This document shows positions 9,566-45,095 of a DNA stretch of 45,924 bases, in pieces. The translations under genes were made by a program, and so were the position numbers. Every line of letters begins with the position of its first letter. Positions within the stretch are counted from its first letter, which is position 1. The notes beneath the pieces are model-generated. The model was not told where the DNA came from and did not search any database. It saw only the letters and a list, made by a program, of their open reading frames with translations. The DNA lies in contig CAIKMZ010000045.1 in the NCBI GenBank assembly GCA_903828665.1, positions 1 through 45,924 of the forward strand, given 5' to 3'. This stretch comes from an uncultured beta proteobacterium. GTDB lineage: Bacteria; Pseudomonadota; Gammaproteobacteria; Burkholderiales; Burkholderiaceae_C.

Positions 9566-9566
9566 C

Positions 9567-11336: not shown

Positions 11337-11579
11337 GGCGGCCAAGCTTACCCAGTTGGCCGCAAATGGCAAGCCCCGACGCAACAAGCACCGCGACCTT
11401 CTGTGGCCAGCCTCGCACCGGGTCGTGCCCGCGTGCGCATCGGTGGCCGGATCTGCTCCCCATTTATGCCGTCTGTTCCACCGATCACGGGCACGCGAAC
11501 GCTGTCATCATGCAGCGACCGCAGCCTTCAGCACGACGCGCAAAACATGACAACCGAGGTTCATTTGTGAAGCCCTGAC

Positions 11580-26598: not shown

Positions 26599-26808
26599 AT
26601 GGAACTAAAAACCGCGCGACTGACTGTTCTGGTGGATCCGGCCAAGAAGAAGGCTTTCGAGGCGCTGTGCGCGAGCCAGGACCTGACGCCGTCGCAGGTC
26701 GTGCGCCGCCTGATCCGCGACTACCTCGTGCATTACGGCGTGGAGTTCGTCCCCAGCGGCCTGAGCGCGGCAGACGACGCCGCTGCCGACCCGACGCAAA
26801 AGCCCTGA
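26599..26808 (+). CDS. Ribbon-helix-helix (CopG/Arc-like) transcription factor
   Basis: The 69-residue protein begins ELKTARLTVLVDPAKKKAFE and continues CASQDLTPSQVVRRLIRDYLVHYG. That is one N-terminal beta strand and two helices in RHH order, with a TPSQ turn typical of the second helix start. RHH proteins bind DNA as dimers through the paired strands. It ends 20 bases before the first gene of the Ehr-like operon. It is not accompanied by a toxin gene, so I read it as a local regulator rather than an antitoxin. Confidence 0.8.
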   Translation: MELKTARLTVLVDPAKKKAFEALCASQDLTPSQVVRRLIRDYLVHYGVEFVPSGLSAADDAAADPTQKP

Positions 26809-26827: not shown

Positions 26828-28831
26828 ATGATCCAGCTGATCTGGGCCGTTCTCGTGCTGTTGCTCGGCGCTGGGCTATGCTTGGCCCCGCTGGGCAACC
26901 GCACGCGCGCCGGCATCGGCGTCGCCTCGCAACTGCTTGCCACGGCGCTGGTCTGGCACACGCTGGCGCCGGTGCTGTTCGGCGGTGCCACGGTCCGCGG
27001 CGAACTGGCCTGGTCCTATCCGGTGGGAACGCTGCGCATCGAGCTCGACGCGCTGGGCGCCTTCTTCCTGGCCTGGGCCATGCCGATGACGCTGCTCGGC
27101 AGCGTCTACGCGCTGGGCTACATGCGGCCCTTCTTCGATTCCACACGCCACCTCGGAGTGCACTACGCGCTGCTGAACCTGACCTCGCTGTCCTTCGTGC
27201 TGGTCTACACGGCGCAGCACGCGCTGGTCTTCCTGCTCGGCTGGGAGATCGCGGCACTCGCCGCCTGGCTGCTCGTGATCTGGGACTTCACGAACCAGAA
27301 AGTGCGATTCGCCGGCTTCAACTACCTGGTCTCGACGCACCTGGGCCTGATCTTTCTGGTGGCGGCCTTCATGATCCTGTACGCGCATTCGGCTTCCTGG
27401 GACCTGGCGCAGTTCGGGCGCTGGCTGCAGGACAACACCGGCTCCGAGCGCGACCTGGTGTTCCTTCTGCTGGTGGCGAGCTTCGGTCTTAAATCCGCGT
27501 TCTTCCCCTTTCACTCCTGGCTGCCGCGCGCCCACGCTGCCGCGCCGGCCCACGTCTCGGCGCTGATGTCGGGCGTCATCCACAAGGCCGGCCTGTACGC
27601 GCTGGTGCGCTTCGTGTTCCTGATCGGGCGACCGGACGAATGGATGGGCTGGTTCCTAATCGGCTTCTCCGCGCTCTCGGCGCTGGTCGGGGCGCTCTAC
27701 ACGGTCGGGCAGCGCGACTTGAAGCGCCTGCTCGGCTACTCGTCGACCGAGAACGTCGGCATTGCCGGCATCGGATTTGGCGTGGGCTGCCTGGGCCTGA
27801 GCTGGAACCAGCCGGCGCTGGTGGCGCTGGGCTTTGCCGGCGGCCTGATGCACGTGCTCAACCATGCCTTCTTCAAGTGCCAGTTGTTCTACGCCGCGGG
27901 CGCCGTCTACCAGGCCAGCCATACCGTGGACATGGAGCGCCTGGGCGGCCTCTCACGCCTGATGCCGTGGACGGCGCTGAGCTTTCTGCTCGGCGGTGTG
28001 GCGATCTCGGGACTGCCGCCGCTCAACGGCTTCACCGGCGAGTTCGTGATCTATTCGGCCCTCTTCAACAGCGCGGCAATCGGCGTCTGGGCCAAGGTCG
28101 CGCTGTGCGCGGCCGGCGCGCTGCTGGCCTTTGTCGGCGCCGTCTCGGCGCTGAGCATCACGCGCGCCTTCGGCGTCGTCTTCCTCGGAAAGGCGCGCGA
28201 TGCCAGCGTGCACGCGCCGGGCGAGATCAGCCGCTGGATGCTGCTGCCGATGGGCTTGCACGGCGTGGGCGTCGTCGTGCTCGGCGTCGCGCCGGTGCTG
28301 GGCTTCATGCTGGTGCAGCGAGCGACCGCCATCGCGCTGGCCCTGCTGCCGGCCTCGCGCATCGATGTGCTGCAACCGATCGCCGATACGCTGGGCCGGG
28401 TCGGCCTCATTTCCGCCGCGCTCGCGCTTGTCATTGCGCTGCTGTGGTGGCTGCGTCCGCGCGTGCCGTCCGCGCCTACGGCGCAGCGCCCGACCTGGGG
28501 CTGCGGCTACATCGCGCCGAATGCGCGCATGCAGTACACGGGCTCAGGCTTCTCGTGGGATTTCAGCGCGCGCTTTCGCGGCGTGCTGCTGATGCTGCAG
28601 CGGCAAAAGGCGCCGGCGGGCTATTTCCCGAGCGACAGTTACGTCGTCACCGATTGCGTCGATGCCGTGGAGCGGCGCGTCTTCTCGGTCGTCGCCAACG
28701 GCGATCTCTCGGCCAAGACTTGGTCGCGCTGGCTGCGCGAGGATGACCCGCGCATTGCCTTCGGCGTGGCGCTGGTCGCCATCGTCGCCATCGCCGGCCT
28801 GGTGGTCCTGAGCACGGGAGCGCTGCCGTGA
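26828..28831 (+). CDS. hyfB: Ehr/hydrogenase-4-like antiporter subunit (HyfB, NuoL-type)
   Basis: This 667-residue polytopic membrane protein belongs to the Mrp antiporter/NuoL family. The proton-path residues are kept: Glu140 in LGWEIAAL, Lys222 in FGLKSAFFPFHSWLP and Lys350 in HAFFKCQLF. The C-terminal region has the HyfB-type TWGCGY motif and a late hydrophobic segment. It should move protons (or Na+) as part of a complex I-like machine. It opens a run of six tightly packed genes; the next start (GTG) overlaps its TGA. The name hydrogenase describes ancestry only, since the large subunit of this operon lacks NiFe ligands. Confidence 0.9.
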   Translation: MIQLIWAVLVLLLGAGLCLAPLGNRTRAGIGVASQLLATALVWHTLAPVLFGGATVRGELAWSYPVGTLRIELDALGAFFLAWAMPMTLLGSVYALGYMRPFFDSTRHLGVHYALLNLTSLSFVLVYTAQHALVFLLGWEIAALAAWLLVIWDFTNQKVRFAGFNYLVSTHLGLIFLVAAFMILYAHSASWDLAQFGRWLQDNTGSERDLVFLLLVASFGLKSAFFPFHSWLPRAHAAAPAHVSALMSGVIHKAGLYALVRFVFLIGRPDEWMGWFLIGFSALSALVGALYTVGQRDLKRLLGYSSTENVGIAGIGFGVGCLGLSWNQPALVALGFAGGLMHVLNHAFFKCQLFYAAGAVYQASHTVDMERLGGLSRLMPWTALSFLLGGVAISGLPPLNGFTGEFVIYSALFNSAAIGVWAKVALCAAGALLAFVGAVSALSITRAFGVVFLGKARDASVHAPGEISRWMLLPMGLHGVGVVVLGVAPVLGFMLVQRATAIALALLPASRIDVLQPIADTLGRVGLISAALALVIALLWWLRPRVPSAPTAQRPTWGCGYIAPNARMQYTGSGFSWDFSARFRGVLLMLQRQKAPAGYFPSDSYVVTDCVDAVERRVFSVVANGDLSAKTWSRWLREDDPRIAFGVALVAIVAIAGLVVLSTGALP

Positions 28832-29757
28832 GCCCGATGCTGATCCTGACGCTCGCCCACGTGCTGATCGCGCTGGCCATGCCGGTGCTGCTGCCCGGCC
28901 TCGTGAACCGCACCAAGTCGCTGTGGGCCGGACGCAAGGGTCCGGGCCTGCTGCAGCCGCTGTGGGACCTGCTGCGCCTGCTGCACAAGCGGCCGGTCTA
29001 CAGCGCGGTGACAACGCCGCTGTTTCGCGCCGGGCCCTGGGTGGTGCTGGCGGGCAGCGTGCTCGCCGCCCTGATCGCCCCGATCCTGGGCGCGCTCGCG
29101 CCGCTGCAGTTCAGCCACGACTTCATTTTCTTCGCCTACACGCTGGGCCTGGCGCGCCTGTTCCTGATGCTCTCGGCGCTCGACGTCGGCAGTTCCTTCG
29201 AAGGCATGGGCGCGGCGCGCGAGGCCTCGTTCACGAGCTACATCGAGCCCGCGCTGTTCCTTCTGATCGGCTCGGCCCTGGTCGCGGGCGGCGGCAGCAG
29301 CTTTGCCGAGCTGATCGGCGGCCTGCAGCGCAGCGACGCCTTCGTCTGGCTGGCGCCGCCAACGGTCCTCGTGCTGTTGGTTCTGCTGCAGGCCGAGGCC
29401 GCCCGCGTGCCGGTGGACGACCCGCTGACGCACCTCGAACTGACCATGATCCACGAAGTCATGATCCTCGACCACAGCGGCCCCGAGCTGGCCGCCATGC
29501 AGTACGCGGCCGGCCTGAAGATGACAATCTACGCCGGCCTGATCGCGGCGCTGCTCAATCCCTTCGATGTTGCCACCGCGCCGCTGGCCGCCGTGCCCGC
29601 TGCGCTGCTCATCATGGCGCTGGTGGCCGTCGCTGTGGGCTGCGTCGAATCCCTGACGGCTCGCCTCCGCATGAGCCTGGTGCCGCGCTACCTGATGCTG
29701 GCGAGCCTGCTCGCGGCGCTGTGCCTGGGCGGCGCCGGCTGGCTGGTGAGGTCCTGA
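28828..29757 (+). CDS. hyfC: Ehr/hydrogenase-4-like subunit C (HyfC, NuoH-type)
   Basis: The 309-residue membrane protein is NuoH/HyfC-like: NRTKSLWAGRKGPGLLQPLW near the first loop, and EAARVPVDDPLTHLELTMI with HEVMILDHSGPE in the acidic loop that faces the hydrophilic arm. In complex I and group 4 hydrogenases this subunit links redox chemistry to the ion-pumping modules. It has about eight spans and starts with GTG overlapping the previous stop. ATG 28837 is a possible alternative. The end overlaps the next gene by one base. Confidence 0.9.
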   Translation: MSPMLILTLAHVLIALAMPVLLPGLVNRTKSLWAGRKGPGLLQPLWDLLRLLHKRPVYSAVTTPLFRAGPWVVLAGSVLAALIAPILGALAPLQFSHDFIFFAYTLGLARLFLMLSALDVGSSFEGMGAAREASFTSYIEPALFLLIGSALVAGGGSSFAELIGGLQRSDAFVWLAPPTVLVLLVLLQAEAARVPVDDPLTHLELTMIHEVMILDHSGPELAAMQYAAGLKMTIYAGLIAALLNPFDVATAPLAAVPAALLIMALVAVAVGCVESLTARLRMSLVPRYLMLASLLAALCLGGAGWLVRS

Positions 29758-30350
29758 TGACGCTGCCGCTGATCGTCTTTCTGCTAGCTGCCGTGATCCC
29801 GGTCTTCTTCAGCAAGATCCGCGCGGCGCCGCTCTGGCTTGCCGTGCAGGCGCTGGCGCTGGGCTGGAACGCGGTCAACCACCACGGGCTGGATTCGCTG
29901 CATGCGCTGATCGCGCTGCTGGAGCTGCTGCTGCTGCGCGCTGCCATCGCACCGCTGCTGCTACGACGCGCCATCCAACAGCGGGCCTGGCCGAATCGGG
30001 ACCTGATGCCGTCGAACCTCTTCACCTGGGTTGTCGCCATCGCGCTGGTCGTGCTGGCGTTCAAGTTCGGCGCGCCGAGCATGGGCGACTACCAGGCCAT
30101 CACGCTGGGCGTCGTCGGCGCCACGGTGGCGGTCGCCCTGCTGCTGCTGGCCACCAACGACGCGCCGCCGGCGCAGCTGGTGGCCATGCTGTTCATGGAA
30201 AACGCGCTGGCGCTGTTCGAGTCGCTGTTTCCCGAGCCCTGGCCACTGCCGGTGCACGGGGCCCTGAGCGCCATCTACCTGCTGACGATCTTCGTCGGAA
30301 CCTGGCTTATCGGCACGCCCGATGCGCCGGTCGCGCAGGAGCACGCATGA
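29757..30350 (+). CDS. hyfE: Ehr/hydrogenase-4-like subunit E (HyfE, NuoK-like region)
   Basis: The 197-residue protein has about six spans and fits HyfE: ALIALLELLLLRAAIAPLLL with a buried Glu, NLFTWVVAIALVVLAFKFG, and LVAMLFMENALALFESLFPEP with two further membrane acids, as in NuoK-type proton paths. It begins in the last base of the hyfC stop and ends in an ATGA overlap with the next gene. HyfE is found in hydrogenase-4 and related complexes but not in complex I itself. Confidence 0.87.
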   Translation: MTLPLIVFLLAAVIPVFFSKIRAAPLWLAVQALALGWNAVNHHGLDSLHALIALLELLLLRAAIAPLLLRRAIQQRAWPNRDLMPSNLFTWVVAIALVVLAFKFGAPSMGDYQAITLGVVGATVAVALLLLATNDAPPAQLVAMLFMENALALFESLFPEPWPLPVHGALSAIYLLTIFVGTWLIGTPDAPVAQEHA

Positions 30351-31792
30351 GCGAAGACATGAACGCCATGAGCGCCGCGCTGGGCCACCCAGAACAAGCC
30401 ATCGCACCGACGCGCCACCTCTGGATCGGACCGGCGCTGGTGGCCGTGGCGCTGGCCACGCTGCTGCTGTGGATCGGCGTTTTCGTGCAGACGCCGCTGG
30501 CCGAGATGCCGCGCTACTACGTACAGCGCTACTTCGTGCTCGACGCCACCTCGATGCTATTCCTGCTCGTGATCAACAGCGTGTTCCTGGGCATCAGCGT
30601 CTACATGTCCTCGCGCGTCAAGACCTCGCAGATCCTGTCGGACAACATGCTCTCGCGCAGCGCGCTGACGCTGGCCTTCATGCTCGCGATGAACCTGGGC
30701 GTGATGGCCAACAACCTGCTGCTGCTGTGGGCCTTCATCGAGCTCACCACACTGTGCGCCGCGCCGCTGGTGGCGCAGGGCGACGCCGGCCGCGCGCGGC
30801 ACGTGGCCTGGAACTACCTGCTGTATTCGAGCATCTCGCTGGCGCTGACCTTCCTGGGCATCATGTGCCTGACGCGCTCGGCGCAATTGCAGGGCCTGGA
30901 GCTGAACTTCGCGCTCGACCAGATGGGGCGCCACATCGCCGTGACCGGCGACAGCTGGCAGCGCCTGGGTCTGGCGCTGATGCTGTTCGGCCTGGGCAGC
31001 AAACTCGGCCTGGCGCCGCTCTACAACTGGATGCCCGAGACCTACGAAGCCGCGCCGAGCAGCACCAGCGCGCTGCTGGCGGCCGTGCAGTTCAACATCA
31101 GCGTGGTGGCCGTGTTTCGCATCCTGCACGTGTTTCGCGGCCAGGACCCGGCCTTCCTGTCGCACGAGCTGCTGTTCATGGGCTGCCTGTCCCTGCTGGT
31201 GGCGGCGGTCCAGGTGATGGCGGCGCACAGCTACAAGCGCCTGGTGGCCTATGCCTGCGTCAGCTCCTCGGGTGTGATCGCGATCGGCCTCTCGGTGGGC
31301 AAGCTCGCCGCCTACGGCGTGCTGCTCTACATCGTGAGCAACGCGTTCGTCAAGGCGCTGCTCTTCCTGACCGCAGGGCGCCTGCGCGCGATCTACCACA
31401 GCAACGAGATCAAGTCGCTCAGCGGCGTGATCCGCGTGCTGCCGTTCTCGGGCCTGCTGTTCGCGGTGGGCATCTTCGCGCTGCTGGGCTTTCCGCCCTT
31501 CGGCAGCTTTCTGGCCGAAATGCTGATCCTCTCGGGCATCGTGCAGTCGGGCAACCTGATCGCCTTCACGCTGATGTGCACCATGCTGACCATCATCTTC
31601 GTCGCCACCGGGCGCTCGATCTTCCCGATGCTCTGGGGACCGTCGAACTGGCAGGGCCCGACCGTCCATGAAACCTGGGTCACGACCGTGCCCAAGCTCG
31701 GCTTCGTGCTGGTGCTGCTCGTGCTCGGCCTGTACACGCCGGCCGCGCTGAGCCAGTTGCTGGTGCAGGTGGCGCAATCGATCGGAGGCTGA
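30347..31792 (+). CDS. hyfF: Ehr/hydrogenase-4-like antiporter subunit (HyfF, NuoN-type)
   Basis: This 481-residue second antiporter-like subunit keeps the pump residues: Glu132 in WAFIELTTL, Lys219 in LGSKLGLAPLYNWMPETYE and Lys336 in NAFVKALLFL. It has about 14 spans. HyfD, the third antiporter of E. coli hydrogenase-4, has no counterpart here, so this complex should have two pump modules of this kind. It is separated from hyfG by two bases, with GGAGG before the hyfG start. Confidence 0.9.
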   Translation: MSEDMNAMSAALGHPEQAIAPTRHLWIGPALVAVALATLLLWIGVFVQTPLAEMPRYYVQRYFVLDATSMLFLLVINSVFLGISVYMSSRVKTSQILSDNMLSRSALTLAFMLAMNLGVMANNLLLLWAFIELTTLCAAPLVAQGDAGRARHVAWNYLLYSSISLALTFLGIMCLTRSAQLQGLELNFALDQMGRHIAVTGDSWQRLGLALMLFGLGSKLGLAPLYNWMPETYEAAPSSTSALLAAVQFNISVVAVFRILHVFRGQDPAFLSHELLFMGCLSLLVAAVQVMAAHSYKRLVAYACVSSSGVIAIGLSVGKLAAYGVLLYIVSNAFVKALLFLTAGRLRAIYHSNEIKSLSGVIRVLPFSGLLFAVGIFALLGFPPFGSFLAEMLILSGIVQSGNLIAFTLMCTMLTIIFVATGRSIFPMLWGPSNWQGPTVHETWVTTVPKLGFVLVLLVLGLYTPAALSQLLVQVAQSIGG

Positions 31793-31794
31793 CG

Positions 31795-33273
31795 ATGACA
31801 CCCCATCCGCCCCTGCTGCTGATCGCCACGCGCGAACTGGAGACGCTCACGCTCGACGCATGGGCCGCGCGCTGCGCGCAGTACCTCGGCGCCGGCGCGC
31901 GCCTGCTGACGCTGTTCGGCCGCTCGACCGACGGCGACCAGGCCATCACCACCGCGCTGCTGCAGGATTCGGACGGCGCGCTGCGCGTGCTGCGCGGCAG
32001 CGGCGCACGCGGACAGTTCTTCGCCTCGCTCACGCCGCAATTCCCGGCCGCCCAGATGGCCGAGCGCGAGCTGTGGGAGCAGACCGGCCTGGTGCCGCGC
32101 GGCCACCGCTGGCTGAAACCCGTGCGCTACGAGGGCGCGCGCCAGCAGCGCATGCACGAACACCTCTTCTTCACGGTGCGCGGCCAGGAGGTGCACGAGG
32201 TCGGCGTCGGCCCGATCCATGCCAGCGTGATCGAGCCCGGCCATTTCCGCTTCATGTGCCACGGTGAGAAGGTTCATCACCTCGAAATCCAGCTCGGTTA
32301 CCAGCACCGCGGCATCGAGGCGCAGCTGCTGCGCCGCCCCGCGCTGTCGCTCTCGCCGCTGGTCGAGTCGATCGTCGGCGACAGCAGCGTCGCCTACGCC
32401 TGGGGCTATTGCGCTGCGGTGGAAGCGCTCAGCCGCACCGGCGTGAGCGCGGGGGCGCAGGCGCAGCGCGGCGTCGCGCTGGAGATGGAGCGCATCGCCA
32501 TGCACCTGGCCACCCTCAATGGCCTGGCGACCGACATCGCCTTCCTGCAGGGCGGCGCCAGCTACGGGCGATTGCGCACCGCCATCATCAACGCCAGCAT
32601 GCGCGTCTGCGGCAGCCGCTTCGGCCGCGGCTGGCTGCGCCCGGGCGGCGTGCGCAGCGCGATCGACGACGCCCTGCGGCAGGACCTGCTCGCGACCCTT
32701 TCCGACTTTGCGCGCGACCTCGCGCAGGTCAACACGCTGATGCTCGAATCACGCAGCGTGCAATCGCGCTTCCAGGGCACCGGCATCGTCAGCCAGAAGG
32801 CGGCGCAGGACATCGGCCTGAGCGGCGTGGTGGCGCGCGCCAGCGGCGTGGCGTTCGATACGCGCGTCGGCTTGGCCGCAACGCCCTACGAAGCGCAGCC
32901 GGTGACGCTGCTGACCGAGAGCAGCGGCGACTGCTGGGCGCGCATGCAGCTGCGCATGCGCGAGATCGACGAATCGGTGCGCTGGCTGCAATCCGTATTG
33001 CAGACGGCGCCGCACGCCGAGGCAATCGCACTGCCGCTGGCCGCGCCGCTCGCGCCGGACCATTTGTGCCTCTCGATCGTCGAGGGTTTTCGCGGGCCGG
33101 TGATCCAGGCGCTGGAGACCGGTGCCGATGGCCGACTCGTGCATTACAAGCTGCAGGACCCCTCGCTGCAGAACTGGTTCGGCCTGGCGCTCGCCGTGCG
33201 CGACAACGAGATTTCTGATTTTCCGATCTGCAACAAGAGCTTTGACCTGTCCTACTGCGGCAACGATCTTTAG
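31795..33273 (+). CDS. hyfG: Ehr large subunit (HyfG/NuoCD-like) lacking the NiFe-binding cysteines
   Basis: The 492-residue protein joins a NuoC-like domain (~1-115, ending ERELWEQTGLVPRGH) to a NuoD/hydrogenase large-subunit domain (VGVGPIHASVIEPGHF, LGYQHRGIEAQL). In hydrogenases, CxxC motifs at both ends hold the NiFe centre. Here the first site reads ESIVGDSSVAY, so the cysteines are Val194 and Ser197. The last one reads FDLSYCGNDL in place of DPCxxC, with Ser486 and a single displaced Cys488. It cannot bind NiFe in the known way. Complex I quinone-site residues are not obviously substituted in either. It is thus an Ehr-type subunit whose substrate is unknown. Confidence 0.9.
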   Translation: MTPHPPLLLIATRELETLTLDAWAARCAQYLGAGARLLTLFGRSTDGDQAITTALLQDSDGALRVLRGSGARGQFFASLTPQFPAAQMAERELWEQTGLVPRGHRWLKPVRYEGARQQRMHEHLFFTVRGQEVHEVGVGPIHASVIEPGHFRFMCHGEKVHHLEIQLGYQHRGIEAQLLRRPALSLSPLVESIVGDSSVAYAWGYCAAVEALSRTGVSAGAQAQRGVALEMERIAMHLATLNGLATDIAFLQGGASYGRLRTAIINASMRVCGSRFGRGWLRPGGVRSAIDDALRQDLLATLSDFARDLAQVNTLMLESRSVQSRFQGTGIVSQKAAQDIGLSGVVARASGVAFDTRVGLAATPYEAQPVTLLTESSGDCWARMQLRMREIDESVRWLQSVLQTAPHAEAIALPLAAPLAPDHLCLSIVEGFRGPVIQALETGADGRLVHYKLQDPSLQNWFGLALAVRDNEISDFPICNKSFDLSYCGNDL

Positions 33274-33285
33274 CAAGACACCCCC

Positions 33286-34035
33286 ATGCTCAATTCCATC
33301 AAGGTCCGCATCGCACAAGGGTCGCAGTACATCCCTGATCCGCGCCAGGCCAGTCCGGCCGGGCTGCGCGGCAAGCCCGTCATCGGTGCGGCCGACTGCG
33401 CGTCAGGCTGCGACGCCTGCGTGAGCGTGTGCCCGACGCAGGCGATCACGCTCGCGCCGCTGCAGATCGACCTCGCGCGCTGCGTGCTGTGCGGCGAGTG
33501 CGCGCCGGTCTGCCCGGGACGCAAGCTCTCGTTCACGAATGATTTCCGGATCGCCTGCACGACGCGCGAAGGCCTGCTGCTCAGCGAGAGCCGGCCCACA
33601 CCCGATCCGGTCCAGGTATCGGCCGCGCTGCACAAACGCTTCGGCCGATCCCTCAAACTGCGCTCGGTGTCGGCCGGCGGCTGCAACGGCTGCGAGCTCG
33701 AAGTCAACGCCCTGTCGAACGTCAACTTCGACCTCGGGCGCTACGGCATCGACATCGTGGCCTCGCCGCGCCATGCCGACGGCCTGATGCTGACCGGCCC
33801 CATCACGCGCAACATGACGGCGGCCCTGCAACTGTGCTGGGACGCCATGCCCGAGCCCAAGCTCGTGATCGCCGTGGGCGCCTGCGCGATCTCGGGCGGC
33901 CTGTTCGCCGACAGCGACAGCATCGACCGCGAATTCCTGGACCGCTTCAAGCCCTCGCTCTACCTGCCGGGCTGCCCGACGCATCCGCTGACCATCGTCT
34001 GCGGCATCCTGGACCTGCTGGGCATTGCAAGTTAA
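33286..34035 (+). CDS. hyfI: Ehr small subunit: ferredoxin-HyfI/NuoB fusion
   Basis: The 249-residue protein fuses a two-cluster ferredoxin to a NuoB-like small subunit. Cluster one uses Cys38, 42, 45 and 49 (note three, not two, residues between the first pair). Cluster two uses Cys66, 69, 72 and 76. The NuoB part has Cys133 and Cys136 in GGCNGCELEV, Cys200 in VGACAISGG and Cys230 in PGCPTHP, the full set for the N2-type proximal cluster. In E. coli hydrogenase-4 these are two genes, hyfH and hyfI. Electrons should enter through the ferredoxin part. It closes the operon; a REP-like palindrome follows. Confidence 0.9.
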   Translation: MLNSIKVRIAQGSQYIPDPRQASPAGLRGKPVIGAADCASGCDACVSVCPTQAITLAPLQIDLARCVLCGECAPVCPGRKLSFTNDFRIACTTREGLLLSESRPTPDPVQVSAALHKRFGRSLKLRSVSAGGCNGCELEVNALSNVNFDLGRYGIDIVASPRHADGLMLTGPITRNMTAALQLCWDAMPEPKLVIAVGACAISGGLFADSDSIDREFLDRFKPSLYLPGCPTHPLTIVCGILDLLGIAS

Positions 34036-34158: not shown

Positions 34159-36113
34159 ATGAATTTGACGCGCCAAGCAAGCATGCCCCCGACCGACCCG
34201 CACCCGACCCCCGAAACAAAGCACAACTTCAGTCCCTGGCTGGGCGAAATGGACGCATGGCTGCTGCGCGAAGGCAAGCACCTGCGTCCTTGGCAGAAGC
34301 TCGGCGGGCATCCGACCCGGATCGACGACGTCGATGGCGTCGCCTTTGCAGTCTGGGCGCCCAACGCACAGCGGGTGTCGGTGGTGGGCGACTTCAACCA
34401 GTGGGACGGACGGCGCGACCTGATGCACTGGCGCGGCGATTGCGCGGTCTGGGAAGTCTTTGTGCCCGGCGTGCGCCCCGGCGCCCTGTACAAGTTTGAA
34501 ATCATCGACGTGCACGGCCACCTCAGCCTCAAGACCGACCCCTACGCGCTGCGCAGCGAAGGCCCGCCCGGCAACGCGGCGCTGGTCTGCGACGGGCCGC
34601 CGGCCGCCGACGCCGCAGCAGCCCCGGCGCCAACCGACGCCGGCAATCCGCTGTCGACTCCGATGGCCATCTACGAGGTCCACGCCGGCTCCTGGCGCCG
34701 CCCCGGCGGCCAGATGCCGGATTGGGACTTTCTGGCCGGCACACTCGTGCCCTACGCGGTCGAGCTCGGCTTCACCCACATCGAGCTGCTGCCCGTCACC
34801 GAGCACCCGTTCTACGGTTCTTGGGGCTACCAGCCCACCGGGCTGTACGCGCCGACCGCGCGCTACGGCTCGCCCGATGCGCTGCGCCGCTTCATCGCCG
34901 CGGCGCATGGCGCCGGGCTCAAGCTGATCCTCGACTGGGTGCCGGGCCACTTCCCCTCCGACGCCCACGCGCTGGCGCGTTTCGACGGCACGGCCCTGTA
35001 CGAGCACGCCGATCCGCGCGAAGGCTTTCACCAGGACTGGAACACGCTGATCTACAACTTCGGCCGCAACGAGGTGCGCAACTTCCTGGTCGGCAGCGCG
35101 CTGTTCTGGATCGAGCAGTACGCGGTGGACGGCCTGCGCGTCGACGCCGTGGCCTCCATGCTGTACCGCGACTACAGCCGCGCCGCCGGGCAGTGGCTGC
35201 CCAACCGCGACGGCGGGCGCGAGAACTACGAGGCGATCGACTTCCTGCAGCAAACCAACCAGACCCTGCACCAGGAGGCGCCGGGCGTGCTGACCCTGGC
35301 CGAAGAATCGACCGCTTTTCCGCGCGTCACCGGCGCCACGGGAGCGGGCGGCCTGGGCTTTGACTTCAAGTGGAACATGGGCTGGATGAACGACACCCTG
35401 TCCTATTTCGCGCTCGACCCGGTGCACCGCCGCTGGCACCACCACCGCATCACGTTCGCGCTGACCTATGCCTGGAGCGAGCACTACGTGCTGCCGCTGT
35501 CGCACGACGAGGTGGTGCACGGCAAGGGCTCGCTGCTGGGCAAGATGTGGGGCGACCCCTGGCAGAAGCGCGCCAACCTGCGCGCGCTGTATGCGCTGAT
35601 GTACGCCTTCCCGGGCAAGAAGCTGATGTTCATGGGCAACGAACTGGCCGCGCCGGCCGAGTGGAACCACGACACCGAACTCGATTGGGGCCTGCTGCAG
35701 GACCCGGCGCACGCCGGCGTGCAGCGCCTGGTGCGCGACCTCAACCAGATCTACCGCAGCCGGCCAAGCCTGCACGCGCGCGACTCCGACGCCGCTGGCT
35801 TTCGCTGGATCGAAGCCGACGACGCCGACCACTCGGTCTACAGCTTCATGCGCCTGGGCGCGCAGCCGCAACAGCAACTGCTGGCCGTGTGCAACCTGAC
35901 GCCGGTGCCGCGCTCCGGCTGGCGCATCGGCGTGCCGCAGGGCGGCCTGTGGCGCGAAGTGCTCAACACCGATTCCGCGCACTACGGCGGCAGCAACGTC
36001 GGCAACCACGGTGGCGTCAAGACCGAGCCGGTGCCGATGCACGGCCAGGCCCAGTCGGTGAGCCTGAATCTGCCGCCGCTCGCCGTGGTCTGGTTTGAAC
36101 TGGAGAGCGCGCC

Positions 36114-36117
<4 letters not shown>
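34159..36117 (+). CDS. glgB: 1,4-alpha-glucan branching enzyme
   Basis: The 652-residue GH13 enzyme makes the alpha-1,6 branches of glycogen. It has a CBM48-like N-terminal beta domain ([20 protein letters not shown]), then the catalytic barrel: [32 protein letters not shown], nucleophile Asp329 in [15 protein letters not shown], acid Glu382 in LAEESTAFP, and the third acidic residue in [11 protein letters not shown]. Length is normal. ATG 34159 is used; ATG 34183 is an in-frame alternative. First gene of a six-gene glycogen cluster, overlapping the next start. Confidence 0.95.
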
Positions 36118-38275
<2,158 letters not shown>

Positions 38276-38279
<4 letters not shown>

Positions 38280-39784
38280 AGGACCATCCACACCCTCTGC
38301 TCGCGCGCCGTACCAGCGGTGTGCTGCTGCACCTGACCTGCCTGCCCGGACCGCACGGCTCGGGTGACCTCGGCGAGTCCGCGCGCCATTTTGTCGACTG
38401 GCTGGTCTCGGCCGGACAAACCATCTGGCAGGTGCTGCCGCTGACGCCACCGGGCCCGGGCCATTCGCCCTACCAGAGCCCGTCGGCCTTCGCCGGCAGC
38501 CCGTGGCTGGTCGATCTCGATGACCTGGTGCGCCATGGCTGGCTGGTCACACCGCCGGTGCCGGACTTCGATGCGCAGCGCTGCGATTTCGAGCGCGTGC
38601 TGCCCTACCGCCTGGCCGCGCTGCGCCTGGCCTGGCGCGGCTTCTGCAAGAAGGCCAGCAAGGCCGAGCAAAGCCGGCTGGCCGACTTTGCGCAGCGGCA
38701 CAGCGCCTGGCTTGACGACTACGCCCTGTTCATGGTGTTGCAGGAGCGCCATGGCGAGCCCTGGACCGCCTGGCCCGGGCCTTATGCGCGCCACGACCCC
38801 GAGGCCTTGCAGGCACTCACGCAGGAGGCGCGCACCGAGGTCGATTTCTGGCGCTTCGTGCAATGGCGCTTTCACGTGCAATGGGCGAGCCTGCGCGAGC
38901 ATGCCCATGGCCGCGGCATCCACATCGCCGGCGACGCCCCGATCTTCGTGGCGCATCACAGCGCCGATGTCTGGGCCAACGCCGGCCAGTACCTGCTCGA
39001 CGAGGCGGGCGAGCCCAGCGTCGTCGCCGGCGTTCCGCCCGACTACTTCAGCGCCACCGGACAGCGCTGGGGCAATCCCCTGTACCGCTGGGACGCCATG
39101 GCCGGTGACGGCTACCACTGGTGGAAGCAGCGCATGAGGCACCTGATGTCGCAGGTGGACCTGGTGCGCCTGGACCATTTCCGCGGCTTCGAGTCCTACT
39201 GGGAAATCCCCGCCACATCGTCCACCGCGTCCGAGGGCGAATGGAAATGCGGCCCGGGGCTGGCGTTCTTCCAGTCGCTCGAAGACACGCTCGGCGTGCT
39301 GCCGATCATCGCCGAGGACCTGGGCATCATCACCGATGCGGTGCGGACGTTGCGCAGCGAATGCGAGTTTCCGGGCATGCGCGTGCTGCAGTTCGCCTTT
39401 GGCGACTCGGCGCGCAATCCCTACCTGCCGCACAACTACGAGCCGCAGACCGTGGCCTACACCGGCACCCACGACAACGACACCAGCGTCGGCTGGTGGC
39501 AGCAGGCGCAGCCGCAGGAACGCGCGGCGGCGTACGACTACCTGGGCCCCCTGGCCGAGCGCGAAATCCACTGGGCCATGATCGGCGCGCTCTCGCAGTC
39601 GGTGGCGCGCACGCTGCTGGTCCCGCTGCAGGACGTGCTCGGCCTCGACACGGCGCACCGCATGAACACGCCGGGCCAGGCCAGCGGCTGCTGGACCTGG
39701 CGCTTTGAGTGGTCGCAGATCAGCTCGGCGCCCGCGCACCGGCTCAAAGCCATGGCCATCGCGCACGGCCGCAGCGGGTGCTGA
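38276..39784 (+). CDS. malQ: 4-alpha-glucanotransferase (amylomaltase)
   Basis: The 502-residue GH77 enzyme disproportionates maltodextrins, recycling short chains released by debranching. Visible are QVLPLTPPGPGHSPYQSPSAFAGSP, the nucleophile region VRLDHFRGFESYWEIPA, the acid in IIAEDLGIITDAV, and the third Asp in TGTHDNDTSVGWW. It ends RMNTPGQASGCWTWRF, typical of MalQ. The start at 38276 overlaps the glgX stop; the longer reading frame from 37955 runs inside glgX and is not real. A 43-base gap with a strong ribosome site separates it from glgC. Confidence 0.95.
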
Positions 39785-39815
39785 CCGACATCACCATTGA
39801 CCCAACCAGTCGAAA

Positions 39816-39822
39816 AAGGAGG
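39816..39822 (+). promoter_or_regulatory. Strong Shine-Dalgarno for glgC
   Basis: AAGGAGG lies 5 bases before the glgC ATG at 39828, the strongest ribosome site in the glycogen cluster. The other junctions rely on ATGA or GTGA overlaps, so glgC, the committed step, may be translated independently. Confidence 0.7.
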
Positions 39823-39827
39823 TTCCC

Positions 39828-41117
39828 ATGGATACCAGCTCACCCCAATGGCTCGCACGCCACACCGTCGCCCTGGTGCTCGCGGGCGGCCGCGGCTCGC
39901 GGCTGCAGGCGCTGACCGACCAGCGCACCAAACCGGCGGTCTATTTCGGCGGCAAGTTCCGCATCATCGATTTCGCCCTGTCCAACTGCCTGAACTCGGG
40001 CGTGCGCCGCATCGGCGTCGTGACGCAGTACAAATCGCACAGCCTGCTGCGCCATCTGCAGCGCGGCTGGTCCTTCCTGCGCAGCGAATTCAACGAGTTC
40101 ATCAACCTGCTGCCGGCGCAGCAGCGCATCGATGAATTGTCCTGGTACCGGGGCACGGCAGACGCGGTCTACCAGAACCTCGACATCCTGCGCGCCGACC
40201 GGCCCCAGTACATCCTGATCCTGGCGGGCGACCACATCTACAAGATGGACTACGCGAACCTGATCGCCGACCATGTGGCCCAGGGCAAGCCCTGCACTGT
40301 GGCCTGCATTGAAGTGCCGCTGGCCGAGGCCAACGCGTTTGGCGTCATGGCCATCGACGACAAGCGCCGCATCAAGCGCTTCGACGAGAAGCCCGAGCAC
40401 CCGACGCCGATGCCCGGCAAGAGCGACCATGCGCTGGCCAGCATGGGCATCTACGTTTTCGACGCCGAGTACCTGTACGCGGCGCTGAAGGCCGACGCCG
40501 ACCTGGCGGGGTCGAGCCGCGACTTCGGCAAGGACCTGATTCCGGCCATCGTGGCACGCGGCGAGGCCGTCGCCCATCCGTTCGGGCTGTCCTGCGTCAA
40601 GAGCACGCCCGAGGCGCCCGCCTACTGGCGTGACGTCGGCACCATCGACGCCTACTGGGCCGCCAACCTCGACCTGACCCGCACCATCCCCGAGCTTGAC
40701 ATGTACGACCGCGAGTGGCCGATCTGGACCCACCAGGAGCAGCTGCCGCCCGCCAAGTTCGTCTTCAACGATGACGGCCGGCGCGGCATGGCGGTCGATT
40801 CGCTGGTCTCCGGCGGCTGCATCATTTCGGGCACGCTGGTGCGGCGCTCCGTGCTGTTCTCCAAGGTGCGCCTGCATTCCTACAGCACCGTCGAGGAAGC
40901 GGTGCTGCTGCCGGAAGTCGAGGTCGGCCGGCGCTGCCATCTGCGCAAGGTGGTGATCGACAAGGGCTGCCATATCCCCCCGGGCATGCAAATCGGGCTG
41001 GACCCTGTCGAGGATGCGCGCCGCTTCTACCGTACCGACCAGGGTGTGGTGCTGGTGACACGCGCCATGCTGGAGCGTGTGGCACAGGAAGCCGGCGCCG
41101 GGGGCGCCTCAGCGTGA
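39828..41117 (+). CDS. glgC: Glucose-1-phosphate adenylyltransferase
   Basis: The 429-residue enzyme makes ADP-glucose from glucose-1-phosphate and ATP, the committed step of glycogen synthesis. It has the nucleotide loop [20 protein letters not shown], the region [16 protein letters not shown], the ATP/Mg motif [12 protein letters not shown], substrate residues in [10 protein letters not shown], and a C-terminal left-handed beta-helix ([16 protein letters not shown]). The AKPAV-like Lys (TKPAV) is kept. Allosteric control by glycolytic intermediates is known for the family. It overlaps glgA (GTGA). Confidence 0.96.
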
Positions 41118-42595
41118 AGATTCTTTACGTTTGTACCGAGCTCTATCCGCTGCTCAAGACGGGCGGCCTGGCCGACGTCGGCGCAGCGCTGCCGGCCGCG
41201 CTGCAGGCCGCGGGTTGTCATGTCCGGCTGCTGCTGCCGGCGTTCGCGGCGATTGCCGCCGGTGTGCGCGCCGACGGACCGGCCGTGCCTCTGCCGGCCG
41301 CCGGCGGACCGCAGGTGCTGCGCACGCTGCAGCCGGCACCGCGGCTGATCCCCGGCCATGTGATCGAAAGCGGGCAGCCGGTCTATCTTCTCGATGCCCC
41401 GGCGCTGTACCAGCGCGAGGGCGGACCGTACCAGGATGCGGCCGGTCAGGATTGGAGCGACAACGCGGCGCGCTTTGCGCTGCTGGGCTGGGCCGCTGCC
41501 GCGCTCGCCTACGGCGCCGACCCGCACTGGCAGCCCGATCTGGTGCATGCGCACGACTGGCATGCCGGTCTGGCCCCGCTCTACCTCAAGCTGCAGGCCA
41601 ACGGCCGGCCGGCCAAGCCCAGCGTCTTCACGGTCCACAACCTGGCCTTCCAGGGGCTGTTTCCGGCGAGCAGCTGCGCCGAGCTCGGACTGCCTCAGTC
41701 GTTGTTCACGATTGACGGCCTCGAATACCACGGTCTGTTGTCGTTCATGAAGGCCGGCCTGCAGTTTGCCGACACCATCACCACGGTGAGCCCGCGCTAC
41801 GCGCAGGAGATCACGACGAGCGAGCAGGGCTGCGGCCTGGACGGCGCGCTGCGCTCGCGCAGCGAACACCTGAGCGGCATCCTCAACGGCGTTGACTATG
41901 AGCTCTGGAATCCGGCCACGGACCCGCTGCTCAACGCCCATTTTGACGGCAAGCGCATGACCGGCAAGGCCCGCGTCAAACGCGCCCTGCAGCGCCTGCT
42001 GGGCCTGGAGGAGCGGCCCGACGCGCTGCTGTTCGCTGCCGTGACGCGCCTGACCGAACAAAAGGGCCTGCATCTGCTGCCGCCGATCCTGCCGGAGCTG
42101 GTCGAGCGCGGCGGCCAGGTGGTGATACTGGGCAGCGGCGACGACGCGATCGAGACCGCCCTGCGCGACGCGCTGGAGCGCCACCCGGGGCAAGCCGCCC
42201 TGCGCATCGGCTACGACGAAGCGCTGGCGCACCGCATCATCGCCGCCGCCGATGTGGTGCTCGTGCCCTCGCGCTTCGAGCCCTGCGGGTTGACCCAGCT
42301 GTACGGCCTGCGCTATGGCGCGCTGCCGCTGGTGCACGCGGTCGGCGGCCTGGCCGACACCGTCACCGACTGCAGCCTCGAAGCCATCGATGACGGCAGC
42401 GCCAGCGGCTTTGTGTTCCATGAATTCAGCAGCGACGCGCTGCGCGGCGCCGTGCGCCGCGCCTTCGCGCTGCGCCGGCGCAGCGCCGACTGGAACGCCG
42501 TGCAACGCCACGCCATGCATCAGCGCTTTGACTGGCAGGAGCCCGCGCACGCCTACCGCGCGCTGTACCAGCGCCTGCTTTCGATTCCTGTCTGA
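41114..42595 (+). CDS. glgA: Glycogen synthase (ADP-glucose type)
   Basis: The 493-residue GT5 enzyme extends alpha-1,4 chains using ADP-glucose. It starts from GTG within the glgC stop: [22 protein letters not shown], where KTGGL binds the sugar nucleotide. The C-terminal half has [16 protein letters not shown] and the retaining-transferase motif [17 protein letters not shown] with its catalytic Glu. [16 protein letters not shown] and [12 protein letters not shown] are typical. Length is normal. glgP follows after 25 bases. Confidence 0.96.
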
Positions 42596-42620
42596 AACTC
42601 TTTGTCCCCGGAGATTGTTA

Positions 42621-45095
42621 ATGCCCACCGTTGTGCCGTTTCAGTTTGATCAACCCACCAACTCGGTCGACGCGCTGCGTCGTTCCATCTCCAATCGGCT
42701 GGTGTACCAGGTCGGCAAGGATGTGCGCTCGGCAACGCGGCGCGACTGGCTGTTCGCCATCTTCTGCGCGGTGCGCGACCGCACCATGGACCGCTGGCGC
42801 ACCAGCCTGAATGCGGCCGAGGACCAGGACGTCAAGCGCGTCTACTACCTCTCGATGGAGTTCCTGCCCGGGCGCATGCTGACCAACGCGCTGATGGCCC
42901 TGGGCATCTACGACGAAACCCGCACGGCCTGCTCGCAGCTCGGCGCCGACTTCGATTCCATCATCGACTTCGAAGCCGATCCGGGGCTGGGCAACGGCGG
43001 CCTGGGCCGCCTGGCGGCCTGCTTTCTGGACTCGATCGCCAGCGTCGGCCTGCCGGGCATGGGCTACGGCATTCGCTACGACTATGGCATGTTCGCGCAG
43101 CGAATCGTGGACGGCCGGCAGGTGGAAGAGCCCGATGGCTGGCTGGTCAATGGCAACCCGTGGGAATTCATGCGGCCTGAATTCAGCCACACGGTGCGCT
43201 TCGGCGGGCGCCTGACGACGGAGAACGGCGTCGTGCACTGGGTCGACACCGACGACGTCATCGCCACCGCCTACGACAGCGGCGTGCCGGGCTACGAGCT
43301 GACCTCGGTCTCGACGCTGCGCCTGTGGTCGGCGCGCGCCACAAGCGTGATCAACCTGGACGCCTTCAACAAGGGCGACTACATGCGCGCGGTGGAGGCC
43401 AAGAACGAATCGGAAAACGTCTCGCGCGTGCTGTACCCGGACGACAGCACGGAGCACGGCAAGGAGTTGCGCCTGCGCCAGGAGTACTTCTTCGTCAGCG
43501 CCTCGCTGCAGGACATGCTGCGCCGCTACCTGCGGCGCCACAGCAGCTTCGACGCGCTGGCCGACAAGGTGGCCATCCACCTCAACGACACGCATCCCGC
43601 GCTGGCCGTGCCGGAGCTGATGCGGCTGCTGGTGGACGAGCATCGCCTGGAATGGGATCAGGCCTGGTCGCTGTGTTGCCGCATCTTCAGCTACACCAAC
43701 CACACGCTGATGCACGAGGCGCTGGAGACCTGGTCGGTGGAGCTGATGGGCAAACTGCTGCCACGCCACCTGCGCATCATCTATGACCTCAATGCCCGCT
43801 TCCTGGCCAGCCTGCACGAGAGCTACCCGGGCGACCCGGACCTGCTGCGCCGCGTCTCGCTGATCGAGGAGAACGGACACCGGCGCGTGCGCATGGCCTA
43901 CTTGTGCCTGCTCGCCAGCCACAAGATCAACGGCGTCTCGGCCCTGCACAGCGATCTGATGGTGCAGACCATCTTCGCCGATTTCGCGCGCCTGTTTCCC
44001 GAGCGCTTCTGCAACAAGACCAACGGCATCACACCGCGGCGCTGGCTGGCGCAGGCGAACCAGCCGCTGGCCCGGCTGATCGATGACCGGATCGGGCCGA
44101 ACTGGCGCCGCCATCTGGGCCAGCTCGCGCAGCTGCGCGATCTCGCCAGCGAACCGGCCTTCAACAACGCCGTGCGCCTGGCCAAGCAGCAGAACAAGCG
44201 CCGCTTGGCCGACTACATCGCGCGCGAGCTCGGCATCCGCGTCAACCCGGAGAGCCTGTTCGATGTGCAGGTCAAGCGCATGCACGAGTACAAGCGCCAG
44301 CTGCTCAACCTGCTGCACGTGATCAGCCGCTACCACCAGATCCTAGCCAATCCACAGGGCAACTGGGTGCCGCGCACGGTGATCTTCGCCGGCAAAGCGG
44401 CCTCCGCTTACTACATGGCTAAGCAGATCATCCGCCTCATCAACGACGTGGCCGCGGTCATCAACGCCGACCCGCATGTCGGCGACCGGCTCAAGGTCGT
44501 GTTCATTCCGAACTACCGCGTGACGCTGGCCGAGCTGATCATCCCGGCGGCCGACCTCTCGGAGCAGATCTCGATGGCCGGCACCGAGGCCTCGGGCACC
44601 GGCAACATGAAGTTCGCGCTCAATGGCGCGCTGACCATCGGCACCTGGGACGGCGCCAACATCGAGATCGCCGAGAACGTCGGCCTGGACAACATCTTCA
44701 TCTTCGGCAACCGCACGCAACAGGTCAGCGAACTGCGCGCGCACGGCTACCAGCCGCGCCGCTATTACGACAACAACTACGAGCTCAAGACCGCGATCGA
44801 CCGCATCGCCGACGGCGCGTTCTCGCCCGAGGAGCCGCAGCGCTACCAGGACATCACACGCACCCTGCTGGAGTCGGACTACTACCAGCTGCTGGCGGAT
44901 TTTCCGGACTACCTGGCAGCGCAGCAGCGCGTCGATGCGCTCTACCGCCGCCCGTCCGAATGGACACGCCAGGCGATCCTCAACATCGCCGCCATGGGTC
45001 CGTTCTCGTCCGACCGCACGATCGGCGAATACGCCAGCGAGATCTGGAACGTGCAGCCCCTTTTCGGTGAACCGGTGCCGGCCAGCACCGCTTGA
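42621..45095 (+). CDS. glgP: Glycogen/starch/maltodextrin phosphorylase
   Basis: The 824-residue GT35 enzyme releases glucose-1-phosphate from glycogen. It shows YYLSMEFLPGRMLTNAL, FEADPGLGNGGLGRLAACFLDS, HLNDTHPALAVPELMR and the pyridoxal-phosphate site EASGTGNMKFALNGALTIG with Lys664. CGGAG lies upstream of the ATG at 42621. A longer open frame from 42315 overlaps glgA and is not real. It is the last gene of the cluster. With glgX and malQ it provides the breakdown arm beside the glgC/A/B synthesis arm. Confidence 0.96.
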   Translation: MPTVVPFQFDQPTNSVDALRRSISNRLVYQVGKDVRSATRRDWLFAIFCAVRDRTMDRWRTSLNAAEDQDVKRVYYLSMEFLPGRMLTNALMALGIYDETRTACSQLGADFDSIIDFEADPGLGNGGLGRLAACFLDSIASVGLPGMGYGIRYDYGMFAQRIVDGRQVEEPDGWLVNGNPWEFMRPEFSHTVRFGGRLTTENGVVHWVDTDDVIATAYDSGVPGYELTSVSTLRLWSARATSVINLDAFNKGDYMRAVEAKNESENVSRVLYPDDSTEHGKELRLRQEYFFVSASLQDMLRRYLRRHSSFDALADKVAIHLNDTHPALAVPELMRLLVDEHRLEWDQAWSLCCRIFSYTNHTLMHEALETWSVELMGKLLPRHLRIIYDLNARFLASLHESYPGDPDLLRRVSLIEENGHRRVRMAYLCLLASHKINGVSALHSDLMVQTIFADFARLFPERFCNKTNGITPRRWLAQANQPLARLIDDRIGPNWRRHLGQLAQLRDLASEPAFNNAVRLAKQQNKRRLADYIARELGIRVNPESLFDVQVKRMHEYKRQLLNLLHVISRYHQILANPQGNWVPRTVIFAGKAASAYYMAKQIIRLINDVAAVINADPHVGDRLKVVFIPNYRVTLAELIIPAADLSEQISMAGTEASGTGNMKFALNGALTIGTWDGANIEIAENVGLDNIFIFGNRTQQVSELRAHGYQPRRYYDNNYELKTAIDRIADGAFSPEEPQRYQDITRTLLESDYYQLLADFPDYLAAQQRVDALYRRPSEWTRQAILNIAAMGPFSSDRTIGEYASEIWNVQPLFGEPVPASTA

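Follow-up and report, generated by a model that had tools for sequence, protein, structure and literature searches.

Parts, clade and probable electron donor of a NiFe-less energy-converting hydrogenase-related complex with a fused ferredoxin domain

What does a membrane complex do that is assembled like hydrogenase-4 and carries none of the NiFe cysteines, and what feeds it with electrons? The question is raised by a contig of an uncultured beta proteobacterium of the Burkholderiaceae_C (assembly GCA_903828665.1, CAIKMZ010000045.1), of which we analyzed positions 1 to 45,924, a stretch of 45,924 nucleotides (nt) here called the window. Six of its genes, hyfB, C, E, F, G and a ferredoxin-hyfI fusion, encode an energy-converting hydrogenase-related (Ehr) complex. 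Such complexes have been described before (PMC4378227, PMC6349859, PMC7894505, PMC10284858, PMC10432482, PMC7304191), with their reaction given as unknown; an Ehr complex is also listed among systems that may serve pH homeostasis (PMC6688271), and in a paper on Cupriavidus fitness "hydrogenase-related" appears to refer to something other than the Ehr complex (PMC11540253). We identified the window complex as a member of a supported clade, type B, distinct from the commoner type A Ehr, and on balance it is probably a ferredoxin-fed, proton-coupled ion pump that reduces an acceptor in the former NiFe pocket. The six genes are as follows.

26828-28831, + strand: HyfB-like antiporter subunit, 667 amino acids (aa); Proton_antipo_M at E 1.8e-53; E140, K222, K350
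28828-29757, + strand: HyfC/NuoH-like membrane anchor, 309 aa, GTG start; NADHdh at E 6.6e-27
29757-30350, + strand: HyfE-like membrane subunit, 197 aa; profile match at 96.8% probability, E 2.8e-10; no Pfam match
30347-31792, + strand: HyfF-like antiporter subunit, 481 aa; Proton_antipo_M at E 1.4e-37; E132, K219, K336
31795-33273, + strand: HyfG-like large subunit, 492 aa, lacking both the NiFe cysteines and the C-terminal extension of Escherichia coli HyfG; Complex1_49kDa
33286-34035, + strand: Fd-HyfI, a 2[4Fe-4S] ferredoxin domain (HyfH/NuoI-like) fused to a HyfI/NuoB-like small subunit, 249 aa; Fer4 and Oxidored_q6; 12/12 ligands; model with a predicted local distance difference test (pLDDT) score of 92.5

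A packed six-gene operon at 26828-34035 had been proposed in an earlier, sequence-only reading, and gene calls, Pfam and profile comparison confirm it: all genes run in one direction, with neighbors overlapping by 1 or 4 nt or separated by gaps of 2 or 12 nt. The assignment of HyfE comes from comparing its alignment of 11 rows with 14 HyfE-like rows including E. coli HyfE, whereas against E. coli HyfE alone it gave no match (1.1% probability). In HyfG, the NuoC domain Complex1_30kDa scored just below the Pfam cut-off (21.5 against 22.5 bits). The gene order B-C-E-F-G-I recurs in relatives, with the exception of three loci (L081, L084, and L086) in which G and I precede B; because of this recurrence, and because the HyfG model best matches E. 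coli HycE, the six-gene complex is more than a chance grouping.

The large subunit has lost the metal site. Aligned with E. coli HyfG, V194/S197 and S486/G489 occupy the positions of the two CxxC pairs, so that all four NiFe cysteines are gone, and L485 stands at the position of the proline, as the sequence-only reading had it for the CxxC and DPCxxC motifs. The window protein ends at L492, with no residue after it; 32 further residues follow in E. coli HyfG and in L045, a CGIC-bearing relative. In hydrogenases, the C-terminal extension of the large subunit is cleaved off in maturation. The structural model of HyfG (pLDDT 90.6, predicted template modeling score 0.92) has as its best solved match HycE of the E. 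coli formate hydrogenlyase (7z0s_E, E 1.7e-31, template modeling score 0.91 by query length).

Searching 300 genomes of the order, we found that the window's own genome carries a second Ehr, of the commoner type A and 39% identical:

G000:C32:30687-32162 (L037 9916-11466): second, type A Ehr operon of the own genome, HyfI without a ferredoxin domain

A tree built from 72 HyfG rows resolves type B (40 rows, including the window) and type A (26 rows) as one clade each, with support of 100/99, and the 2 types together stand apart from the rest (99/94), some long branches and uneven composition being flagged. E. coli HyfG and the CGIC-bearing relative fall outside this NiFe-less group, which upholds the earlier assignment to the Ehr type rather than to hydrogenase-4; the comparison set beside types A and B consisted of E. 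coli HyfG and 5 other rows. Three cysteines separate the types: C155 is present in 40/40 type B rows, C479 in 37/39 and C488 in 38/39, and each of them in 0/26 type A rows, the C-terminal columns counting 39 because L089 lacks its C-terminus. Six of the 45 loci (L066, L071, L076, L082, L085, and L091) were left out of this alignment (A2) as broken, partial or near-copies, or for brevity; they carry the type B cysteines where the columns are covered, the broken C-terminus of L066 being beyond judgment. The first NiFe cysteine (position 194) survives alone in 13 of 40 type B rows, for example in ESICGDS. Five of the 24 proteobacterial loci (L051, L053, L071, L080, and L092) carry both types on one stretch, and in G435 the two lie about 9 kilobases (kb) apart. 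When 200 family genomes were typed by identity, 6 proved to have type B, 5 of them together with type A, and 13 of the 194 others to have type A (p 2e-5).

The emptied pocket nevertheless appears to retain proton-delivery residues of the hydrogenase kind. Glu193, Arg478, Asp529, His284, Glu437, and Arg395 have been proposed for proton delivery in E. coli HycE (PMC9474812), and in an alignment read by eye, with an offset of 12 that we reckoned for the tag in the PDB chain, they correspond to E147, R433, D484, H237, E390, and R348 of the window HyfG. Across the type A and B rows, E147, H237, and E390 are kept in 66/66 and R433 in 65/65, and R348 is Arg in 62 and Lys in 4 of 66.

The path for electrons into this pocket is also present. 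As the sequence-only reading had stated, all 12 iron-sulfur (Fe-S) ligands are in place in the window protein, and they are likewise complete in L073 and in 24/24 proteobacterial relatives, L066 and L068 being assigned only to the level of proteobacteria. The proximal-cluster ligands are C133, C136, C200, and C230; the remaining eight we take, by the 2[4Fe-4S] ferredoxin pattern, to pair as cluster I (38, 42, 45, 76) and cluster II (49, 66, 69, 72). Farther away the chain is thinner. All four cluster I ligands are missing in 10 Gastranaerophilales-like rows, 2 spirochaete rows, and 1 Cloacimonadota row, which keep cluster II and all proximal ligands. The 33 Bacteroidota rows without exception retain cluster II and have an incomplete cluster I; at the proximal site, C200 is replaced by Asp (33/33), C230 by Asn (33/33), and C133 by Asp (32) or Glu (1), with C136 staying Cys in 23. 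Of these rows, 29 (L164-L192) come from the order of G575, the Rikenellaceae genome that holds L087, with the small subunit alone examined; 57 of 247 genomes of that order matched and 30 loci were taken, one of them L087 itself. The other four (L083, L087, L088, and L090) fall inside type B by HyfG, and L083, L087, and L088 have E/K/K in the covered columns where HyfB and HyfF were available.

The pump residues named earlier, HyfB E140/K222/K350 and HyfF E132/K219/K336, align with the E/K/K of E. coli HyfB and HyfF. In the alignments of the antiporter-like subunits, the first column is Glu in 95/97 and 96/98 covered rows, the exceptions being L042 and L045, which belong to neither type, and the two lysine columns are invariant wherever they are covered; in E. 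coli HycC, the lysine of the E/K pair has been lost (PMC9474812). HyfC keeps E140, E190, E204, and E210 in 43/43 rows and E132 in 42/43.

Which donor might supply the electrons was approached through the distribution of PF01855, the 2-oxoacid:ferredoxin oxidoreductase, in the same 200 family and 300 order genomes (sameness by shared handles). Genomes with a HyfG match at E <= 1e-60 were counted as Ehr-positive, so that in the order sample four genomes whose matches are weaker or broken (G011, G126, G257, and G260) fall among the negatives. PF01855 was found in 17/19 Ehr-positive against 50/181 Ehr-negative genomes of the family (p 1.7e-7; type B, 6/6) and in 56/77 against 65/223 genomes of the order (odds ratio 6.5, p 2.8e-11). 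The difference appears in order genomes without Rnf (25/35 against 47/166) and with Rnf (31/42 against 18/57). In 49 hand-picked genomes, which overlap the other 2 samples and omit G560 because it and G270 are one organism, strong matches were present in 13/15 type B carriers (all except G561 and G564), 8/10 carriers of type A only, and 4/24 genomes without Ehr. The own genome has 5 matches at E <= 1e-30, tied for the most in any of the 200 family genomes, and a sixth over the Pfam cut-off (1.2e-14). This co-occurrence supports ferredoxin as donor, and it is the ferredoxin half of the earlier proposal, "ferredoxin or another soluble donor," that it strengthens.

The 6 PF01855 genes of the own genome lie on contigs C101, C146, C113, C27, C102, and C126, one of them in a frame of 1671 aa. 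We also considered Ehr as a stand-in for Rnf and rejected it: such a pattern is only local (RnfC in 1 of 200 family genomes, and no RnfC match at 1e-15 in the own genome), and across the order Ehr and Rnf coincide more often than chance predicts (Rnf in 42/77 Ehr-positive against 57/223 Ehr-negative genomes).

With the NiFe cysteines lost but the electron wires and pump residues kept, ferredoxin-fed ion pumping is therefore the probable role of the complex. The fused ferredoxin domain of HyfI would receive electrons from a soluble donor of low potential, most plausibly ferredoxin that 2-oxoacid:ferredoxin oxidoreductases have reduced; the electrons would pass through its two [4Fe-4S] clusters and the proximal [4Fe-4S] cluster to an acceptor in the pocket that held the ancestral NiFe center; protons could reach the pocket by the retained hydrogenase-type route; and the redox step would drive ion pumping via HyfC, HyfF, and HyfB, as the charged residues of the membrane subunits suggest.

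Several observations weigh against this picture. The co-occurrence p values are too small because genomes share ancestry, even if all the samples point the same way, and an anaerobic lifestyle may lie behind the association. Beside the operon, the compared loci showed no recurring ferredoxin or oxidoreductase gene. Most Ehr in the order sample are type A, and the five type A small subunits that were read have no ferredoxin domain. In the pocket, the HycE canopy residue Ser283 is not kept (M236 in the window HyfG), and the column of D484, the counterpart of Asp529, varies in type B (25 Asp, 13 Asn, and 1 Ser among 39 rows) and is Asn in 26/26 type A rows. The proximal ligands are changed in the Bacteroidota relatives, and a full electron path is therefore unnecessary across the wider clade.

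A bolder version joins two ideas, and as a whole we regard it as rather unlikely. In the emptied pocket, type B might have assembled a new active site from C479 and C488, where the C-terminal motif used to be, together with C155, D196, N480, and K481; this site would carry out a reduction that consumes protons and is not known from the complex I superfamily. The electron chain, in turn, might have been dismantled stepwise within the clade, with the D/D/N replacement of the proximal cysteines and the staying of the pump residues in Bacteroidota marking pumps that no longer need the last Fe-S cluster. In the archaeal membrane-bound sulfane sulfur reductase (MBS), two leftover cysteines at the old NiFe site proved uninvolved in catalysis (PMC7684303), which calls for caution over the conserved type B cysteines.

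Among the alternatives to the ferredoxin-fed pump, the same machine may run in reverse, proton-motive force driving the reduction of ferredoxin with electrons from a donor of higher potential that occupies the pocket of HyfG. The anatomy would be identical and both antiporter subunits have their pump residues; the genome offers NiFe-hydrogenase matches and formate dehydrogenase as electron sources, and several ferredoxin-using enzymes. The pocket, however, has no known donor site, and sequence does not fix the direction of flow; we hold reverse operation to be rather unlikely. A ferredoxin:quinone oxidoreductase, that is, a small complex I without the NADH module, is suggested by homology to NuoD, NuoB, and NuoH and by structural matches that include complex I folds at 19-24% identity. 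The quinone head-group residues H38 and Y87 of Nqo4 (PMC7684303) nevertheless align by eye with I146 and G195, the proximal motif is a hydrogenase-like CxxC where complex I has an adjacent pair, and relatives occur in Gastranaerophilales, and for Riflemargulisbacteria, another sibling lineage with Ehr, no full quinone pathway is reported to have been found (PMC6349859); quinone reduction seems unlikely. Polysulfide (sulfane-sulfur) reduction at the proximal cluster would follow the example of MBS, which is also ferredoxin-fed and without a NiFe center and the Nqo4 H38/Y87 residues (PMC7684303). MBS catalysis, though, uses a shortened motif with one cysteine off the cluster, and MBS lacks the glutamate MbhL E21, whereas the window has a hydrogenase-type CNGC and retains the counterpart E147, and we consider this chemistry very unlikely.

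The window also contains a formate dehydrogenase, 15 kb from the Ehr operon:

6773-11387, - strand: formate dehydrogenase alpha subunit (FdhA) with a NuoG-like N-terminus, and a fused NuoE-NuoF partner

FdhA reaches 694.6 bits with TIGR01591 (cut-off 666.25). The presence of this enzyme and its NuoE-NuoF partner in the same window led us to consider the formate-driven complex of formate dehydrogenase and Ehr proposed for Riflemargulisbacteria and Saganbacteria (PMC6349859). All Geobacter Ehr subunits were more abundant on formate than in hydrogen-containing conditions, which was read as a link to formate dehydrogenase (PMC7894505), and with the window FdhA alone as query, 9/9 proteobacterial carriers searched have FdhA at 63-85% identity. 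Against it, FdhA at >= 60% identity is present in 6/7 genomes with type B and in 23/35 without (p 0.40), lies about 380 kb from type B in the one-contig genome G414, and among 13 distant carriers has a best full-length-like match of 36% identity (G578), with none in 4. We found no specific association of fdhA with type B and rejected formate dehydrogenase as its specific partner, and a formate-driven complex built on the 6773-11387 enzyme appears highly improbable.

A functional hydrogenase-4, to which the best-scoring models of HyfB and HyfF belong (among the best 25 of 72 and 68 NCBIfam matches), is contradicted by 0/4 NiFe cysteines, the absent C-terminal extension, and the separate clade, and can safely be set aside. 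Two remarks of the sequence-only reading did not hold. Automated annotation was expected to call hydrogenase-4, and among the NCBIfam matches listed (which further comprise the best 25 of 42 for Fd-HyfI and every match of HyfC and HyfG, HyfE having had none) each model falls short of its curated cut-off: hydrogenase 4 subunit B scores 438.7 bits against 667, and the best for HyfG is NuoD, 170.4 against 360. That the window has no hyp genes is uninformative, because contigs C88 and C42 of the genome contain matches above the NiFe-hydrogenase cut-off and C88, by reading of translated frames, also hyp genes.

Upstream of the operon, and ending 19 nt before hyfB, stands a small gene:

26599-26808, + strand: RHH_9 ribbon-helix-helix protein, 69 aa, candidate regulator or companion; Pfam PF19839 at E 1e-22

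An RHH_9-like gene (E < 1e-15) was found within about 1 kb of the type B operon in 12 of 24 proteobacterial loci, 5 of the 24 containing no DNA upstream of hyfB, and in 0 of 21 distant loci. It lies upstream of hyfB in 10 of the 12 and on the other side in 2 (L055 and L071), and it occurs in both orientations; it is possibly a dedicated regulator of the type B operon. In L071, the RHH_9 gene precedes the type A operon. In flanks of up to 10 kb, read in frames of at least 90 aa, the clusters found beyond the six genes were common only to kin groups, and none across phyla. MetG adjoins type B in the window and in 5/24 proteobacterial loci. A glycogen cluster (GlgB, GlgX, MalQ, GlgC, GlgA, and GlgP, by reading) directly follows the Ehr operon at 34159-45095 on the + strand, as it does in L054 and partly in L048. 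Elsewhere in the window, 12762-14771 on the - strand encodes a 669-aa protein that combines DUF6600 with a long tail rich in proline and glutamine. Scanning the window with Rfam and for tRNA genes found nothing.

The sequence-only reading had not noted that the genome has a second Ehr, that proton-delivery residues are kept, that three cysteines are specific to the clade, or that HyfG lacks the C-terminal extension. The clade gives handles on Ehr function: a likely donor with a genome-wide count, proton residues kept against metal ligands lost, three cysteines to mutate, a paralogous second complex as contrast, and cultured carriers in Quisquiliibacterium transsilvanicum and Hydrogenophaga taeniospiralis. 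In Q. transsilvanicum DSM 29781, type B was the sole Ehr at E <= 1e-60 and PF01855 is present, whereas H. taeniospiralis (L080, G564) carries both types and gave no strong PF01855 match. The Bacteroidota sequences are informative on the question of which complex I components coupling requires. In the literature consulted, we found no description of the type B cysteines, the D/D/N change, or the co-occurrence with PF01855.

Compared with known systems, the window complex shares with Ehr complexes the HyfB/C/E/F/G/I-like set in one operon and the lack of NiFe CxxC pairs, the 2 features tested; it may be set off by the ferredoxin domain fused to HyfI, by C155/C479/C488, and by the type A Ehr in the same genome. 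E. coli Hyf/Hyc resembles it in subunit homologues and their order, in the HycE fold, and in the proton-delivery residues, and differs in having NiFe ligands, the C-terminal extension, and separate HyfA, HyfD, HyfH, and HyfJ genes, of which the operon has none. Pyrococcus MBS is likewise NiFe-less and ferredoxin-fed, with three [4Fe-4S] clusters and the quinone residues absent (PMC7684303), whereas the window has C133-x2-C136 at hydrogenase spacing, retains E147, and has far fewer membrane subunits in its operon. With complex I/NDH-1 it shares homologues of NuoD, NuoB, NuoI, and NuoH and antiporter subunits, while lacking an NADH module in the operon and equivalents of H38/Y87 and having a hydrogenase-like proximal motif. 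The Ehr kind is thus already known, and the type B complex appears to be new by its fused ferredoxin domain together with its clade-specific cysteines.

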